Shown here: piece by piece, positions 49,270-55,750 of the stretch
Layout: the number at the start of each line of letters is the position of its first letter
Numbering within the stretch: the first letter of the stretch is position 1
Source of the DNA: Paenibacillus sp. FSL R10-2782
Lineage (GTDB): Bacteria > Bacillota > Bacilli > Paenibacillales > Paenibacillaceae
Direction of reading: 5' to 3'
NCBI RefSeq assembly: GCF_038592985.1
Contig: NZ_CP151951.1
Location: 1,231,001-1,295,000 of the forward strand
DNA length: 64,000 bases
Program-made: the position numbers and the translations under genes
Notes under the pieces: model-generated
What the model was told of the DNA's origin: nothing
The model's database searches: none
What the model saw: only the letters and a program-made list of their open reading frames with translations

Positions 49270-50646
49270 ATGAAGCTCGTACTTTTGTCTGGTGGTTCCG
49301 GTAAGAGATTATGGCCTTTGTCCAACGATTCCCGTTCCAAACAATTTTTGAAGGTGCTGGAGAGTCCAGAGGGTAATTCGGAATCTATGGTGCAGCGGGT
49401 GTGGAGACAACTGGGGGATAACGGCTTGTCCGAATCCTCGTTTATTGCAACAGGGAGAGCGCAGGTTGAAATGATTCAGAGTCAGGTTGGGCAGGATACG
49501 CGCATCATTGTTGAGCCGGAGCGAAGAGATACCTTTCCTGCCATTGCGCTGACAGCGACTTATCTATATTCCATCGTTGGAGTTTCGCCCGATGAAATTG
49601 TTGCTATATTGCCGGTAGATCCCTATGTAGAGGATGCTTTCTTTGCTACAGTCGCCCAGTTGGAACATACTCTTCAGGAGAGTGAAGGCAAGCTTGCACT
49701 AATCGGGGTTGTCCCTTCCTATCCCTCTGAGAAATATGGTTACATTATACCGAAAAATGATGCCACACAAGGTAGCACAGGCTACCGCGAAGTGAGCCAT
49801 TTTCAAGAGAAACCCGACCGGGAGCAGGCGGAGCGTCTGATGGAACGCAATGCTCTATGGAACTGCGGGGTTTTTGCATTCAAATTGGGTTACTTGCTCG
49901 ATATCTTGGCATCCAAAGGTTTGCCGCTGAACTATGAAGAAATGCAAAAGCAATATTCTTCTCTGGAAAAAATCAGCTTTGACTATGAGGTAGTCGAGAA
50001 GGAGCAGGACATCGTTGTTCTCCCGTATGATGGATTCTGGAAGGATTTAGGTACTTGGAACACCTTAACGGAAGAAATGTCACATCAGCAAGTGGGCAGA
50101 GGCGTAGTCACGGAGGATTGCGTCAATACGAGCCTTATCAACGAACTGGATATCCCCGTGGCAATCATTGGAACGAATGATCTGATCGTAGCTGCCAGCC
50201 CGGATGGCATCCTTGTGACCAATAAGGCGGAAAGTCCGCGCATCAAGGAAGTGCTCAAGGCTCATAATCAGCGTCCAATGTACGAAGAGCGCCGTTGGGG
50301 GCATTATCGGGTAGTGGATTATGTGAAGTATGACGAGGGCAACGAGGTATTGACCAAGCGAATCCGTGTGCTGCAAGGCAAAAATATCAGCTACCAGCTT
50401 CATTTCAAACGGAGTGAAATTTGGACCATTATTAGCGGTGAAGCGGAAATTATTTTGAATGAAAAGCTGCATAAGGTGAAGGCTGGTGATGTGGTTCGTA
50501 TTCCAGAAGGGACGAAGCATAGTATTTTAGCCGTGACTGATGTGGAATTGATCGAGGTACAGACAGGTTCTGAGTTGATCGAAGAGGATATTGTCCGTTT
50601 TTGCATGGATTGGGATGAAATTTCCCGTCACAAGTTTATTTCATAA
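49270..50646 (+). CDS. manC: Mannose-1-phosphate guanylyltransferase (ManC type, with cupin domain)
   Basis: A 458-residue enzyme making GDP-mannose. The N-terminal nucleotidyltransferase has LLSGGSGKRLWPLS and the Lys of FQEKPDREQAE. The C-terminal cupin (residues ~350-455; KNISYQLHFKRSEIWTIISG, KAGDVVRIPEGTKHSI) is the phosphomannose isomerase-like part of type II enzymes, so it may also isomerise Fru-6-P to Man-6-P. GDP-mannose feeds GT4 enzymes and the gmd-fcl branch to GDP-fucose. Repeat-rich DNA precedes it. Confidence 0.93.
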   Translation: MKLVLLSGGSGKRLWPLSNDSRSKQFLKVLESPEGNSESMVQRVWRQLGDNGLSESSFIATGRAQVEMIQSQVGQDTRIIVEPERRDTFPAIALTATYLYSIVGVSPDEIVAILPVDPYVEDAFFATVAQLEHTLQESEGKLALIGVVPSYPSEKYGYIIPKNDATQGSTGYREVSHFQEKPDREQAERLMERNALWNCGVFAFKLGYLLDILASKGLPLNYEEMQKQYSSLEKISFDYEVVEKEQDIVVLPYDGFWKDLGTWNTLTEEMSHQQVGRGVVTEDCVNTSLINELDIPVAIIGTNDLIVAASPDGILVTNKAESPRIKEVLKAHNQRPMYEERRWGHYRVVDYVKYDEGNEVLTKRIRVLQGKNISYQLHFKRSEIWTIISGEAEIILNEKLHKVKAGDVVRIPEGTKHSILAVTDVELIEVQTGSELIEEDIVRFCMDWDEISRHKFIS

Positions 50647-50789
50647 ATATTTTGCGAAATCCTGAAAGATGAAAAAAAGACTCATTTATGAAGTTATTTA
50701 GCTCAAACTGTCGAAAATACACGAAAATCTGTAAATTCATAAACATGACCTATTAAATTTTGGTAAAAAAAAGTCGATACTTAGGGTAA
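50647..50789 (+). other. Gap upstream of the riboswitch, likely promoter region
   Basis: AT-rich sequence between manC and the aptamer. It contains ACACGAAAATC at 50719-50729, also present at 54995-55005. The transcription start for the riboswitch leader should be here, but no convincing -35/-10 pair was recognised. Confidence 0.35.
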
Positions 50790-50897
50790 GAAGGAATCCA
50801 AACTCCTTCCACGATAAACGCAGCCCTGTTGAAAGGCAGGTACGCAAAGCTAAAGGGCCTTCCGTGAGGATGGCAGCCTGGCTACCGAAAGGAAGAG
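50790..50897 (+). ncRNA. Cyclic-di-GMP-I (GEMM) riboswitch controlling the mannanase gene
   Basis: The aptamer core runs from about 50806 to 50895. It shows the P2 arm with a GAAA tetraloop (CCCTGTTGAAAGGCAGG), then the conserved TACGCAAAGCTAAAGGG, and the P3 end GGATGGCAGCCTGGCTACCG. CTTCC at 50806-50810 can pair with GGAAG at 50891-50895 to close P1, and that 3' strand is the mannanase Shine-Dalgarno. Alternatively GAAGGA (50790-50795) can pair with TCCTTC (50804-50809), freeing it. The layout predicts translational repression when c-di-GMP is bound; the direction is inferred, the aptamer is seen. Confidence 0.93.
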
Positions 50898-50902
50898 CGA
50901 GA

Positions 50903-52495
50903 GTGAGCCCCTATTTTACCCCTGTGTATCGATGGATACGCAGTGTACTCCCCGTTGTTATGCTTTTTTCTTTGTTGCCTGTCGGTTTCGGTGAATCTCT
51001 GTCCGTGGCGAATGCTGCCACATTACAGCCTGTTAATTCGGACGCTTCTGCTGAGGCCCGTGAACTATACAGCTATTTGATCAGCATCTCCGGGAAAAAA
51101 ATGGTCACAGGTCAACATGACTATTTGGAAAGTCCGGATGAATTAAGCAACAAGGTCCAAAAAATCAGTAAGGCGTATGTTGGTGTACATGGCTACGAGA
51201 TGGGGGCCATCTCCGGTCAGTCCGCCACTACGGAGGCAGCACAACGTAAAAATGTCGTCGATAGCGCCATACGTTGGAGTAGAGATGGCGGCATGGTTAC
51301 AATGACTTATCATGAACCGCTGCCGGGTAAACCACTGACTTGGGCTAATGTGCAGGCGAAAGTAAGCCAGGCGGAGTTTAATAAATATGTGACGCCGGGT
51401 ACTGCGCAGTATAATCTTCTCATTGCCGATCTGGATAAGGTCGCTATATCGTTAAAGCAGCTTCGTGATGCAGGAGTTCCAGTATTATGGAGACCTTACC
51501 ACGAAATGAACGGCGACTGGTTCTGGTGGGGAAATAAAAACAATTTCAATCAGCTATGGGATATCATGTATGACCGTTTTGCAAACACGCATCAACTGAA
51601 CAATCTGCTGTGGGTATGGAGTCCGAATGCGCCTAATTCGTACACTGTCCCATATACCCCGAAATATCCGGGGGATGACAAAGTGGATATTTTGGCTGTA
51701 GACATTTACAACCATGATTTTAAGCAAAGCCATTACGAAGGACTGCTCGGACTGGCACGGAATAAGCCGATTGCCATTGGGGAACATGGTGAGGTACCCA
51801 GTCCCGAGGTGATGCAGGCTCAGCCAAAATGGGTGTATTCCATGACCTGGGGCAAGATGCTGACCGAAAATAACACGACGGATCAGATTCAGGATTATAT
51901 GAATGATTCGACAAGCTTGACGCGGGATGATGTGAAAAAAGGATTAGCTGCGATGAAAGAACCTGACACGGAGCTACCGACCGTACCGGACACGGGGTCA
52001 AACGATCCAACTCCGGCTCCGCCAGTGGTAAGTAAACCAACCCCGCCTTCCGTTCCGGATATGGTTTATGCGAACGGGTTGCGGGGTGAATATTTTAACA
52101 GTATGGATCTGGACGGCACCACTGTTTTGGTTCGTACAGACAGTATGCTGGATTATAACTGGCGTGCGGCCTCGCCTGATCCCAAGGTGAAGGCTGATCA
52201 GTTCTCGGTCCGCTGGACGGGCAAAATCAAGCCGCAATACAGTGAGACCTATACGTTTACCACGATTTCTGATGATGGTATTCGTGTATGGGTAGACGGC
52301 AAGCTGGTTATTGATAGCTGGTTCAAACAAAGCTGGACGGAACGCAAGGGCAGCATTACCTTGCAAGCAGGCAAAATGGCAGATTTGAAAGTTGAATATT
52401 ATGATGAAAAAGGCGACGCAATGGCACGTCTGATGTGGGAAAGTCAGCATGAAGCGAAAGCGGTAATTCCCGGCAACGCTTTGTTTCTTCCTTGA
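50903..52495 (+). CDS. Secreted GH26 beta-mannanase with PA14 domain
   Basis: A 530-residue exported hydrolase. GTG 50903 is the start, since GGAAGAG precedes it and any upstream start (GTG 50864, ATG 50870) lies inside the riboswitch aptamer. A signal peptide ends near ANA-ATLQ (residue ~38). The GH26 domain has WRPYHEMNGDWFWWGNK with acid/base E201 and PIAIGEHGEVPS with nucleophile E294. A Pro/Thr linker is followed by a PA14 domain (~385-530: LRGEYFNSMDLDG, TTISDDGIRVWVDGK). It likely trims mannose-containing EPS or plant mannan; placement in the EPS locus favours the former. Confidence 0.92.
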   Translation: MSPYFTPVYRWIRSVLPVVMLFSLLPVGFGESLSVANAATLQPVNSDASAEARELYSYLISISGKKMVTGQHDYLESPDELSNKVQKISKAYVGVHGYEMGAISGQSATTEAAQRKNVVDSAIRWSRDGGMVTMTYHEPLPGKPLTWANVQAKVSQAEFNKYVTPGTAQYNLLIADLDKVAISLKQLRDAGVPVLWRPYHEMNGDWFWWGNKNNFNQLWDIMYDRFANTHQLNNLLWVWSPNAPNSYTVPYTPKYPGDDKVDILAVDIYNHDFKQSHYEGLLGLARNKPIAIGEHGEVPSPEVMQAQPKWVYSMTWGKMLTENNTTDQIQDYMNDSTSLTRDDVKKGLAAMKEPDTELPTVPDTGSNDPTPAPPVVSKPTPPSVPDMVYANGLRGEYFNSMDLDGTTVLVRTDSMLDYNWRAASPDPKVKADQFSVRWTGKIKPQYSETYTFTTISDDGIRVWVDGKLVIDSWFKQSWTERKGSITLQAGKMADLKVEYYDEKGDAMARLMWESQHEAKAVIPGNALFLP

Positions 52496-52544: not shown

Positions 52545-54833
52545 ATGATGAAAAATTGGTTGACCCAAAGGTATATAGTAGTATTGGCCGGGCTGCTAGG
52601 GGTCGCAGCTATAGCGCTGATTGCCTGGTTTATTCATACGCCTCCCAAGAGTGAAGAACTTCAGACGATTAAAGTAGCGGCGGCCAGTCCGGTATGGAAG
52701 ATTGGTCAGCGGGATGACTCTTCAGCAGAATTTAAAGGTATGGTTGGTAAGGACAATGTCAATATTTCGGCGGCCTCCACCGAGTCGTCTGCTAAAGGAG
52801 CATCGTCAGCGATGTCCATAGCAGAAAGTACAACGGCTCCGGTATTGCTCAGCAGTGGAGATATTCCTCCCGGTTTAAATGCGTCCATGAATCCTGAACT
52901 ATCACTCCAGTACAAGCTGGATCAGGTTCCTCCCAACGGGATGATATTCCGTGTACGGATTTTGGATGCGGGTAAAGCCGTTCCCCAAATGGCTGTATTT
53001 TCAAATCATCAGTTGTCCGGTATCATTCAGATTGCCGGGGTTTCCGGCACAGGCAGTGCATATAATTTCAAAAACAACTACGAGCTGTATATCCCCAAAG
53101 AGCAATTGCAAAGCGGTGTTAACGTACTCAAGCTAAAGACAGCACGCTGCCTATACTGCTCCTCTGCTGAAGATAAAAATGTGTGGTGGACTTGGGATGA
53201 CTTGAGCTTGGAGACGTTAGCTTCACCTGCGACTGAGCCGATACACGGTAAATATATACTGACCGGAACGAATGTGAACAATAAAGAATTTTATTATGAT
53301 CAGGGTGCGGTAAAACATTTACCATACGTTCTCAAATGGCTGGGAATTGCATATAGCGGCAATGTCATGAGAGTCACCTGTGCCAGTAATGTGAACAAGG
53401 CATGCACAGACGTGGGAGAGTACTACCAAACGTTGAAGCAGTATAATATGCAATCGTCGGCCTTGTATTTATATACGGGCGATATCAAGCTGCAAAAAGA
53501 CGGTTCCCTGCCGGAGACAGCCAAGCAGAAGTTGCGCGATTATGTAAAAAAATATGGTTCATACCTGCAATATTATGAAGTGGATAATGAACCGGGATTG
53601 TTTAACCGCTCGAAAGCGGTCAATCTGGCCGTTGCCAAGTGGCTGAATACGGAAGGTAAGCAATTGGCGCCGCATCTCAAAACGGTAGCGCCGGGCTGGG
53701 CCTACTGGCCGACGTATTCGACCAAGGCTTGTAAAAACCAAACCGGAGGTACGCCGAAATGCGGCGATCCGGATGGATGGGAGCGGGACCCGGCACAGCG
53801 TAAACAACTGGAGGATGTCACCGACCTGACTAACGGGCACGCCTATGGCGAATCGTATAATGAAGAGGGCGGGGGCAGCTTCGTCCAAAATTTGAAAACC
53901 TTCGGCGGTTCGAGCAATGGGCTGGAGAAGAAGATGCTGAATACGGAGTTTGGTACGAACGATACGCATCGGGACAACCCTGATTACGGGGCCAGTCAGC
54001 CACAAGCAGCAGCATTCGACCGGATTATGCGTTCGCAGATCGGTTTTGCCGATATGTTTATCCAGCATGCTGCTTTTTATAAGGACTACACGTTGTTTAA
54101 AACCGGCTTTGACTTGCAAAATCACAATCCGGCGAATACGGAAATTTATCCGTTCGGACAAGGGCAGGACAGCCGTGTAAACATCATGAGACGCTTGAGT
54201 CTGGCTTATGCCACACACGGAAAACCATTGACTTATACGGTCCTGAATCCAGAGGAAACGAAGGATAAGATGGTCTATGTCCGTGCAGTGGATACGTCTA
54301 AACTGAAACCGCTGGCTGGCAGTGGGGCCACCTCGGACAAATTGCTGGTGAATCTGGTGAATTTTGAATCCACAGCACAGACGATCCGTGTACGGGTGAC
54401 GTTGCCGAAAGTCGGTTTGTACACGGGTGAACGCTTCGGAGCTGGCTCTACGTACAGCCAGGCACAGCGTTCCATATCAGGACTCAAGGCTTCGCCTTCC
54501 CTTGATTTTGAAGAAAAGCTGGGGCCCGGCGAGTCGGTCCAATACATTCTGGAATTGAAAAGTGCAGATCAGGCCGCAGCTTCGGCCCCTACAGAGGTGA
54601 AGGCCGCCTCTGTTCAGGAAGGCGCGGTAAAGATTGATTGGCTTCAGGCAGAAGGCGTATCCGCCTATGATGTGCTGCGTGCGGACGGGACAGACGGGGC
54701 GTATCAGGTGATTGCCTCGGAAGTAGCGGGAAGCACGTATACGGACCACACGGTGAAAGCCGGAAGTCACTACGCCTACAAAGTCCGAGCGACTGGGGGC
54801 ACTCAGGTGTCTCCCGCGGCCGAGGTCGCTTAA
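52545..54833 (+). CDS. Membrane-anchored glycoside hydrolase-like protein with C-terminal FN3 domain
   Basis: A 762-residue protein. One membrane segment (residues ~9-27) anchors it outside. A beta-sandwich-like part (~100-220) has a CLYC cysteine pair. A TIM-barrel region (~230-560) shows the clan GH-A pattern: an acid/base Glu in EVDNEPGLF (E349) and a candidate nucleophile in MLNTEFGTND (E468). A beta domain (~600-670) and an FN3 domain (~680-762; KIDWLQAEGVSAYDVLRAD) follow. The GH family is not recognised. It lies 49 bases after the mannanase gene, so it is probably controlled with it. Confidence 0.75.
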   Translation: MMKNWLTQRYIVVLAGLLGVAAIALIAWFIHTPPKSEELQTIKVAAASPVWKIGQRDDSSAEFKGMVGKDNVNISAASTESSAKGASSAMSIAESTTAPVLLSSGDIPPGLNASMNPELSLQYKLDQVPPNGMIFRVRILDAGKAVPQMAVFSNHQLSGIIQIAGVSGTGSAYNFKNNYELYIPKEQLQSGVNVLKLKTARCLYCSSAEDKNVWWTWDDLSLETLASPATEPIHGKYILTGTNVNNKEFYYDQGAVKHLPYVLKWLGIAYSGNVMRVTCASNVNKACTDVGEYYQTLKQYNMQSSALYLYTGDIKLQKDGSLPETAKQKLRDYVKKYGSYLQYYEVDNEPGLFNRSKAVNLAVAKWLNTEGKQLAPHLKTVAPGWAYWPTYSTKACKNQTGGTPKCGDPDGWERDPAQRKQLEDVTDLTNGHAYGESYNEEGGGSFVQNLKTFGGSSNGLEKKMLNTEFGTNDTHRDNPDYGASQPQAAAFDRIMRSQIGFADMFIQHAAFYKDYTLFKTGFDLQNHNPANTEIYPFGQGQDSRVNIMRRLSLAYATHGKPLTYTVLNPEETKDKMVYVRAVDTSKLKPLAGSGATSDKLLVNLVNFESTAQTIRVRVTLPKVGLYTGERFGAGSTYSQAQRSISGLKASPSLDFEEKLGPGESVQYILELKSADQAAASAPTEVKAASVQEGAVKIDWLQAEGVSAYDVLRADGTDGAYQVIASEVAGSTYTDHTVKAGSHYAYKVRATGGTQVSPAAEVA

Positions 54834-54900: not shown

Positions 54901-54945
54901 AAGAACCTATCGGGAGAAAGTAGGACCCGACAGGTTCTTTTTTAT
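54901..54945 (+). terminator. Rho-independent terminator after the glycosidase genes
   Basis: AAGAACCT pairs with AGGTTCTT, with GGG/CCC inside, followed by T6. Confidence 0.9.
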
Positions 54946-55381: not shown

Positions 55382-55750
55382 TTATTTCATCATTCGTTCC
55401 ATGCGGACAAACGCGATAAAACGCTTGGCTTCTTCCTCAGACAAAGTTCTTCCATCAATGGTCAAATTAAAACGTTGCAGGATATCTTCATCGGACAGCT
55501 CCAACTGGTCCACAAATTCCCTCACATCTGAATCCAAAATTGCTGCCGGATGGCTAGTGCGTCCTACCAAGTAATCAATGGACACCCCGAAAATGTCTGC
55601 AAGCTTGGTCAGTATCTCAAAATCTGGCTTGCGCCGGTTTTTTTCATAGTGAGAAAGAGCCGCCCGCGTAATTCCGAGAGATTGCGCTAGTTCCTCTTGT
55701 TTTAATCCCTTATATTCCCGTAATTCAGCGATGCGGGTGCCATAATTCAT
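55382..55750 (-). CDS. XRE-family transcriptional regulator (helix-turn-helix)
   Basis: A 122-residue protein on the reverse strand. The HTH covers residues ~6-62 (IAELREYKGLKQEELAQSLG, ITRAALSHYEKNRRKPD, LADIFGVSIDYLVGR). The C-terminal half is acidic and helical (DSDVREFVDQLELSDEDIL), probably for oligomerisation. AGGAGGA precedes the ATG. It is divergent from the second EPS operon, and palindromic operators fill the space between; autoregulation and control of that operon are inferred. It resembles SinR/SlrR-type biofilm regulators in general build only. Confidence 0.9.
   Translation of the reverse strand: MNYGTRIAELREYKGLKQEELAQSLGITRAALSHYEKNRRKPDFEILTKLADIFGVSIDYLVGRTSHPAAILDSDVREFVDQLELSDEDILQRFNLTIDGRTLSEEEAKRFIAFVRMERMMK

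Follow-up and report, generated by a model that had tools for sequence, protein, structure and literature searches.

In Clostridioides difficile, the gene for the protease PPEP-1 carries a class I riboswitch for cyclic dimeric guanosine monophosphate (c-di-GMP). Functional class I switches of this organism are described as uniformly OFF, and PPEP-1 (ZmpI) cuts adhesins of the cell surface close to the point where they are anchored in the wall (PMC6366702); the class I switch Vc2 of Vibrio cholerae is a translational OFF switch in which the P1 helix is decisive (PMC9262584). In Bacillus velezensis, c-di-GMP is negatively correlated with dispersal (PMC12029170), and several glycosidases are more abundant in swarming Paenibacillus polymyxa, which the authors of that study tie to degradation of the bacterium's own exopolysaccharide (EPS; PMC6878767). 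The EPS genes of the pep-2 cluster of P. polymyxa follow the order ugdH1-manC-pepM-pepN-pepO (PMC7911366, Table 1 of that paper). Here we describe the leader of pepM, a gene for a secreted GH26 glycosidase, in a stretch of 64,000 nucleotides from the P. polymyxa-like soil bacterium Paenibacillus sp. FSL R10-2782 (NZ_CP151951.1, positions 1,231,001 to 1,295,000; the whole stretch is called the window below). The leader very probably places hydrolases nested in a Paenibacillus EPS operon under conserved, motility-linked control gated by a cyclic dinucleotide. At the level of sequence, its aptamer, overlapping helices and promoter motif, their conservation and the locus itself are established.

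We compared the whole window to 4227 Rfam families with cmscan, and the sole match above gathering score was c-di-GMP-I (RF01051) at 50809-50889 on the forward strand (score 55.9 bits, cut-off 35; E 3.1e-08). This Infernal search confirmed a preliminary description of the DNA, made from its letters, which had called a c-di-GMP-I element at 50790-50905. At E 1e-60, 18 of 75 genomes from the genus held matches to the GH26 protein, and at E 1e-180, 53 of 394 from the family did; 57 of the 58 match rows were used, G007:3621571, which holds stops, being omitted. The aptamer scored above a curated cut-off in 50 of these 57 GH26 leaders, one of the 50 being cut by a contig end; those without it are L022, L023, L102, L104, L105, L106 and L107. 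A chance match is rejected on the E value and this recurrence. The window aptamer has a GAAA loop at 50831-50834 and, when aligned to the RF01051 model, retains the ligand-contact residues A47 (50846) and C92 (50885); C stands in place of G20 at 50819, and the base of P2 reads AGC for AAA (50822-50824) and UAC for GAC (50841-50843). The Vc2 numbering used here was put on the window partly from published passages and partly as we take it to run. The class named in the preliminary description, a 'clear GEMM-I', is therefore upheld by the RF01051 score, and the word 'clear' is not, given the C at G20 and the AGC/UAC base of P2; the C at G20 was not counted as deciding against membership in RF01051. 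Membership in c-di-GMP-I-GGC (RF03167), whose letters GGC we read from its consensus as positions 20, 47 and 92, was rejected, as the score is 50.3 bits against a cut-off of 59 and 50846 (position 47) is A, not G. Thirty-two relatives are assigned to RF03167; this better fit seems to reflect their short P3, and the consensus G47 is absent from them.

In the preliminary description, GGAAG of the Shine-Dalgarno sequence had been taken as the 3' strand of P1, and the pairing possible between CUUCC 50806-50810 and GGAAG 50891-50895, which ends 7 nucleotides upstream of GTG 50903, bears this out. A competing GAAGGA/TCCTTC helix, thought to release the Shine-Dalgarno sequence, lies exactly where it had been placed; full release is not recovered, since about 98% of the predicted ensemble keeps the GG paired. 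P1 and the competing hairpin share bases and are thus mutually exclusive. Fold energies in the window are predictions without ligand or tertiary contacts: over 50786-50950 the two structures are 0.1 kcal/mol apart, and in five other folded stretches the competing hairpin is ahead by 2.8-5.4 kcal/mol, so that all six favour it without ligand, by margins of 0.1-5.4 kcal/mol, with the near-tie limited to one 3' end. The GG at 50891-50892 is predicted to pair either within a two-pair CC-GAAA-GG stem or in P1. No terminator-like site was found between the aptamer and the GTG start, and a transcription-terminator platform was rejected on this ground. With the Shine-Dalgarno sequence in P1 and a helix competing with P1, the leader has what would be the anatomy of a Vc2-like translational OFF switch.

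Conservation of the two helices was counted in relatives with a Shine-Dalgarno form CGA[AG]AGG[AG]AG and a correctly spaced -10 box. Eight of the 57 leaders failed this selection (L090, L095, L099, L102, L104, L105, L106, L107), nine identical leaders were merged and L022, in which the aptamer is replaced, was omitted, which left 39 distinct leaders; as these are pre-selected for GG[A/G]AG, the presence of a Shine-Dalgarno sequence among them is no evidence. The full five-pair P1 is present in 30 of the 39, compared to 5.3% of shuffles, and a P1 of at least four pairs in all 39, compared to 50%. The competing helix reaches at least 6 bp in 32 leaders (20.7% of shuffles) and at least 5 bp in 38 (46.5% of shuffles). 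GGGAG replaces GGAAG in five leaders, four of which show matching changes in both the shared strand and the 5' strand, with a competing helix of 5-9 pairs (for example AGAGGA/UCCUCU) and a P1 of 4-5 pairs; in L024, also a GGGAG leader, both helices are weak. In ligand-free predictions, the fold that leaves GGAAG open beats the P1 fold in 30 of 39 short leaders, by a median of 3.2 kcal/mol, and opening GGAAG in the full ensemble costs a median of 0.94 kcal/mol over the 39 leaders.

A promoter of sigma-D type stands ahead of the leader, and the RNA is predicted to start right where the competing hairpin has its 5' edge (Table 1). The sigma-D consensus is TAAA-N14-16-GNCGATA; since it was taken from general knowledge, we calibrated the pattern on this genome, which encodes a FliA/sigma-D protein above the family cut-off. 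The exact motif is found upstream of the flagellin gene (hag) and of two of the 21 genes for methyl-accepting chemotaxis proteins (MCPs) with a placeable start (two more MCP loci could not be placed), and with one mismatch upstream of two further MCP genes; from the genome-wide pattern count, about 0.03 exact matches are expected by chance in the flagellin and MCP stretches tested. The GTCGATA form has 11 matches in the genome, four of which are hag, two MCP genes and pepM. Among relatives, 53 leaders were counted (of the 57, we set aside the truncated paralogue L107, the second tandem copies L102 and L105, and L095, which lies at a contig end). The -10 box is present in 52 of them, with TAAA at the right spacing exact in 45, with one change in six and with two changes in one, and the motif with at most one TAAA change occurs in 51 of 53 leaders compared to 94 of 2650 shuffled upstreams. 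As the motif is shared with the genome's own motility genes and conserved in relatives, we assign it to the sigma-D (FliA) type. The pepM leader lies inside an operon transcript and seems to have its own promoter.

GTG 50903, proposed as the start codon in the preliminary description, is supported by homologue matches that begin at query residues 1-15, downstream of the window Shine-Dalgarno sequence, and by the leader alignment, in which relatives mostly have GTG or TTG at this place; the alternative in-frame GTG 50864 falls within the aptamer. The published pepM gene model probably starts at GTG 50864, within the riboswitch, because the manC-pepM gap of 217 bp in P. polymyxa WLY78 (PMC7911366) equals the distance from manC to that codon in the window; the published PepM length of 535 residues equals neither 530 nor 543, and the gap match, a fit rather than proof, supports the placement of the start at 50903. 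Gene models that start inside the riboswitch may have hidden the element, and the words 'riboswitch' and 'c-di-GMP' are absent from the main text of PMC7911366.

Table 1. Features of the pepM leader and its locus (positions in the window).
Feature	Positions	Strand	Remarks
manC, last EPS biosynthesis gene ahead of the leader	49270..50646	+	Pfam
Sigma-D type promoter	50754..50780	+	TAAA 50754-50757, 15 nt, GTCGATAC 50773-50780; motif shared with motility genes, kept in relatives
Predicted transcription start	50786..50788	+	From spacing to the -10 box
Competing (anti-P1) hairpin	50790..50809	+	GAAGGA 50790-50795 pairs with UCCUUC 50804-50809
P1 5' strand CUUCC, common to the competing hairpin	50806..50810	+	Pairs with GGAAG 50891-50895
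c-di-GMP-I aptamer	50809..50889	+	RF01051, 55.9 bits; RF03167, 50.3 bits, below its cut-off of 59
Shine-Dalgarno AAGGAAG	50889..50895	+	GGAAG 50891-50895 is the P1 3' strand
pepM (GTG start), secreted glycosidase of family GH26 with a PA14 domain	50903..52495	+	PF02156, 2.4e-54 (185.3 bits); PF07691, 1.2e-27
pepN, putative secreted glycoside hydrolase	52545..54833	+	In one transcript with manC and pepM in P. polymyxa WLY78 (PMC7911366)

The EPS-locus setting and the secreted GH26 target had both been named in the preliminary description, and both are borne out by the Pfam families and by the gene order of the window (a UDP-glucose dehydrogenase gene, manC, the GH26-PA14 gene pepM, and pepN), which is that of the pep-2 cluster. 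On the basis of its domain and both catalytic-region motifs, PepM is classed as a GH26 glycosidase: H200-E-M-N-G204 and the residues G293, E294, G296 and E297, which include the glutamates that we take to be catalytic, are invariant in six aligned proteins. Its N-terminus is signal-peptide-like by eye, and its relatives of solved structure are GH26 enzymes such as 6q75 and 3zm8. Reverse transcription PCR in P. polymyxa WLY78 places pepM and pepN in the EPS operon transcript (PMC7911366), so that the switch would sit within an operon transcript; the same experiment supports the suggestion that the next glycosidase, PepN, is probably included in the control. A terminator-like hairpin lies at 54922, downstream of pepN. 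PepN is named a glycoside hydrolase in print; it has no Pfam match above cut-off and no NCBIfam match, and in the PDB it matches only Fn3-type stretches of two chains. The protein encoded at 52545-54833 may represent an undescribed glycosidase family. We also note an XRE-like regulator at 55382-55750 on the reverse strand, between the pep-2 and pep-1 clusters. A c-di-GMP-I switch acting in antisense on a SinR-like XRE gene has been proposed for a Paenibacillus (PMC9943018), at a locus that may or may not be the present one.

Linkage of the parts was assessed among named genomes, in which the best 80 GH26 matches correspond to 76 loci. The aptamer plus Shine-Dalgarno pattern is present in 25 of these 76. 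The promoter motif accompanies it in 22 of the 25, compared to 3 of the 51 others, and manC lies upstream in 24 of the 25, compared to 11 of the 51 others, which form an unclean control: in nine of them what was read is part of an open frame rather than a leader, as it is by eye in L234, and L239 and L245 fit a loose aptamer pattern without the Shine-Dalgarno sequence. Two of the three promoter misses (L203, L205) have TACA at the -35 box. When 18 loci, 17 of them from the 51, were submitted to cmscan, the aptamer was found only in L207, one of the 25. By these counts, promoter and riboswitch travel together and with the EPS locus. Carriers by pattern include P. terrae, P. brasilensis, P. ottowii, P. 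jilunlii, P. wynnii and P. camerounensis.

Several loci depart from this arrangement. L207, from a metagenome-assembled Paenibacillus genome (UBA10396), has an intact aptamer on a GH26 gene, no manC match and no sigma-D pattern upstream; the competing hairpin is absent by eye, and the locus may be a misassembly or a rewired copy. The P. massiliensis leaders L022, L023, L185 and L186 keep the sigma-D site, the competing hairpin and the Shine-Dalgarno sequence, with the P2 arm of the aptamer replaced; L022 and L023 score below cut-off with every Rfam model, and the leader looks like a riboswitch that has lost its sensor. In L102 and L105 a second GH26 copy lies directly downstream of the first, and its leader, where the aptamer is reduced to its 3' portion and the Shine-Dalgarno sequence is kept, looks like a decayed duplicate. 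L099 (G237:C1:6817230-6818030) carries an insertion of about 180 bases between the promoter with the competing hairpin and the intact aptamer.

Our preferred explanation, to which we give a probability of about 0.6, is a two-input gate in the EPS operon, a nested release circuit in which PepM would be made in motile cells with low c-di-GMP. RNA polymerase carrying sigma-D, at work in flagella-building cells, would start a transcript at the leader edge, and read-through from the EPS operon would carry the same pepM leader. At low c-di-GMP, the GAAGGA/UCCUUC hairpin would capture the P1 5' strand, leaving only a weak local stem over the Shine-Dalgarno sequence, and secreted PepM, probably together with PepN, would be translated. 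At high c-di-GMP, the bound aptamer would close P1 over the Shine-Dalgarno sequence, and the EPS genes would be expressed without the hydrolases. The output would be trimming or release of the matrix as cells turn motile. An OFF direction is our best guess, because the anatomy is Vc2-like, no terminator-like site is present and a sigma-D type promoter fits motile cells with low c-di-GMP. In favour of this circuit we count the 11 GGDEF and two EAL matches encoded in the genome, and the raised motility reported upon a deletion in the pep-2 cluster (PMC7911366). The release logic had been put forward in the preliminary description, and it gains independent support from the conserved, motility-type promoter that precedes the leader; the circuit as first drawn omitted the operon transcript and the leader's own promoter, and the earlier interpretation as a whole is partly supported.

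A number of observations weigh against this explanation. In the predicted ligand-free fold of the window, the unpaired probability of the GG at 50891-50892 is 0.02, and opening GGAAG in the hairpin state would cost 2.4-3.4 kcal/mol; since the Shine-Dalgarno sequence is left incompletely open, we hold the explanation slightly less firmly. Among the distinct leaders of the P. polymyxa group, 8 of 11 have a P1 fold better by 0.1-1.5 kcal/mol than the fold with an open Shine-Dalgarno sequence. The leaders are kin, and their helix counts are non-independent trials; the P1 of the four matched GGGAG leaders retains only three Watson-Crick pairs. With regard to the promoter, the genome holds 51 matches to TAAA-N14-16-GNCGATA and 67 to a reversed control, so that the pattern is not enriched genome-wide and is uninformative by itself; no motility gene was seen, by eye and without a family search, downstream of the first 30 of the 51 matches, and 17 of 21 MCP upstreams lack the motif at 0-1 mismatches. 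EPS is only a putative substrate of PepM, and GH26 is unnamed among the glycosidase families detected, in the part of the P. polymyxa swarming study that lists them (PMC6878767). The C at position 20 and the changes at the P2 base could also weaken or alter ligand binding.

In a different use of the same parts, PepM could be a mannanase that scavenges plant polymers and merely sits beside EPS genes, its circuit serving foraging by motile cells instead of matrix release. Named GH26 relatives of solved structure are mostly beta-mannanases, P. polymyxa is commonly root-associated (PMC6878767), and secreted PepM has a PA14 domain. Yet among the best 80 matches manC precedes the copy with the riboswitch in 24 of 25 named loci, and another GH26 gene of this genome, the paralogue L031, has neither an aptamer nor an exact sigma-D pattern nearby. 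In P. polymyxa WLY78, moreover, the transcript of the EPS operon includes both pepM and pepN (PMC7911366). We regard the foraging role as unlikely.

The altered pocket bears on the identity of the ligand. All 15 leaders of the P. polymyxa group have C at G20 together with the AGC/UAC base of P2, and of the 28 aligned leaders outside the group only L024 departs from G20, AAA and GAC, through an altered P2 base with G20 intact. This division speaks for a real translational switch whose P. polymyxa-group aptamer would no longer answer mainly to c-di-GMP and would have been retuned, either towards a different cyclic dinucleotide or towards far higher c-di-GMP. Position 20 is described as a factor in ligand selectivity. 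However, changing G to A or C at the equivalent position of Cd1 is reported to have no large effect, and among 110 aptamers of otherwise consensus-like form, drawn from 148 genomes of the family, 14 have C at position 20 (12 of the 14 in one genus), as does a 75.7-bit riboswitch of this same genome. Retuning is accordingly an explanation in which we place little confidence, and c-di-GMP is the likely ligand of the pepM leader. In a score-biased sample of 40 high-scoring riboswitches of the family, 37 are readable at position 20, with 36 G and one A. Decay of the aptamer signalled by C20 was not kept as a candidate, C being natural in the 14 of 110 family members. The broader idea that Paenibacillus EPS operons hold a nested release module, of sigma-D promoter and cyclic-dinucleotide riboswitch that together license the hydrolases of the cell's own EPS, with the P. 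polymyxa-group pocket retuned to a different dinucleotide or concentration range so that synthesis and release answer distinct signals, is speculative and rather improbable.

Two other c-di-GMP-I loci of the genome deserve mention. The 75.7-bit aptamer with C at position 20 (L006 10866-10955; G000:C1:2932865-2932954, reverse strand) precedes a nonribosomal peptide synthetase of 2975 residues with a reductase-like end domain. Tandem c-di-GMP-I aptamers (L005 9696-9901; G000:C1:514695-514900, reverse strand) lie before a transglutaminase-like gene, which is followed by a gene for a collagen-binding, SpaA-type adhesin of 1239 residues; position 20 of the proximal aptamer is A, and its layout, CCGAAAGGAAG-7 nt-ATG, resembles that of pepM, so that it may also act on translation.

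Direction is the point on which the last alternative turns, namely that the switch is reversed or constitutive, with pepM translation not lowered, or even raised, by the ligand, and that the sigma-D promoter does the regulating. It draws on leaders that retain promoter and lose sensor: those of P. massiliensis (L022 and L023, with L185 and L186 by pattern) keep promoter, hairpin and Shine-Dalgarno sequence, with no aptamer model at cut-off in L022 and L023, and a promoter-like site with one -35 change and no aptamer is seen in P. pinistramenti L197 and in L104 and L106. The open Shine-Dalgarno fold predicted to be better in 30 of 39 leaders without ligand points the same way. Set against this are the lack of a terminator-like site between aptamer and start codon, and the fact that aptamer and Shine-Dalgarno sequence are kept together in most relatives (the aptamer in 50 of 57), with the full P1 in 30 of 39; a reversed or constitutive switch therefore appears doubtful to us.

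If the release circuit is correct, the EPS operon holds its own off-ramp, its matrix-cutting enzymes being let out with motility on and the biofilm signal off. It would offer a concrete way to test how c-di-GMP and sigma-D connect to matrix turnover in Gram-positive bacteria of the soil. It could also be of use with strains that produce EPS, in which leaking hydrolases could shorten the product. Among the papers listed from the open-licence literature on c-di-GMP riboswitches with Paenibacillus, EPS, mannanase or glycoside hydrolase, none reports a c-di-GMP switch on an EPS-locus GH26 gene, in agreement with the earlier remark that such a circuit is 'not widely described'; a transcriptome paper on P. 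riograndensis contains no c-di-GMP or SigD term.

As far as we have seen, the parts of this locus are of known kinds, and their combination and the variant pocket are new. Its gene order is that of the pep EPS cluster of P. polymyxa WLY78 and DSM365 (PMC7911366). Like Vc2, the leader has a class I aptamer and would be of the translational OFF type in which P1 stability decides (PMC9262584). It differs from Vc2 in its C at G20, its target, a hydrolase of an EPS cluster, and its sigma-D type promoter. It also has a 5' hairpin that competes for P1, the platform of Vc2 being, we presume, of another design. The c-di-GMP-I-GGC family (RF03167) likewise has a short P3, lacking the CUAA segment that the RF01051 consensus shows, and differs in its consensus G at the A47 position, where the window and the aligned leaders have A. 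Bc2 of Bacillus thuringiensis is likewise a class I aptamer in Bacillota on a surface gene (PMC6366702); it acts as an ON switch, through read-through of transcription, and its target is a collagen adhesion protein. The class I OFF switches of C. difficile and its PPEP-1 release system provide a precedent for the pepM circuit in their logic of release at low signal (PMC6366702), but they work by transcription termination and through a protease that acts on proteins, whereas the pepM leader would act by masking the Shine-Dalgarno sequence and through a glycosidase on a putative EPS substrate.

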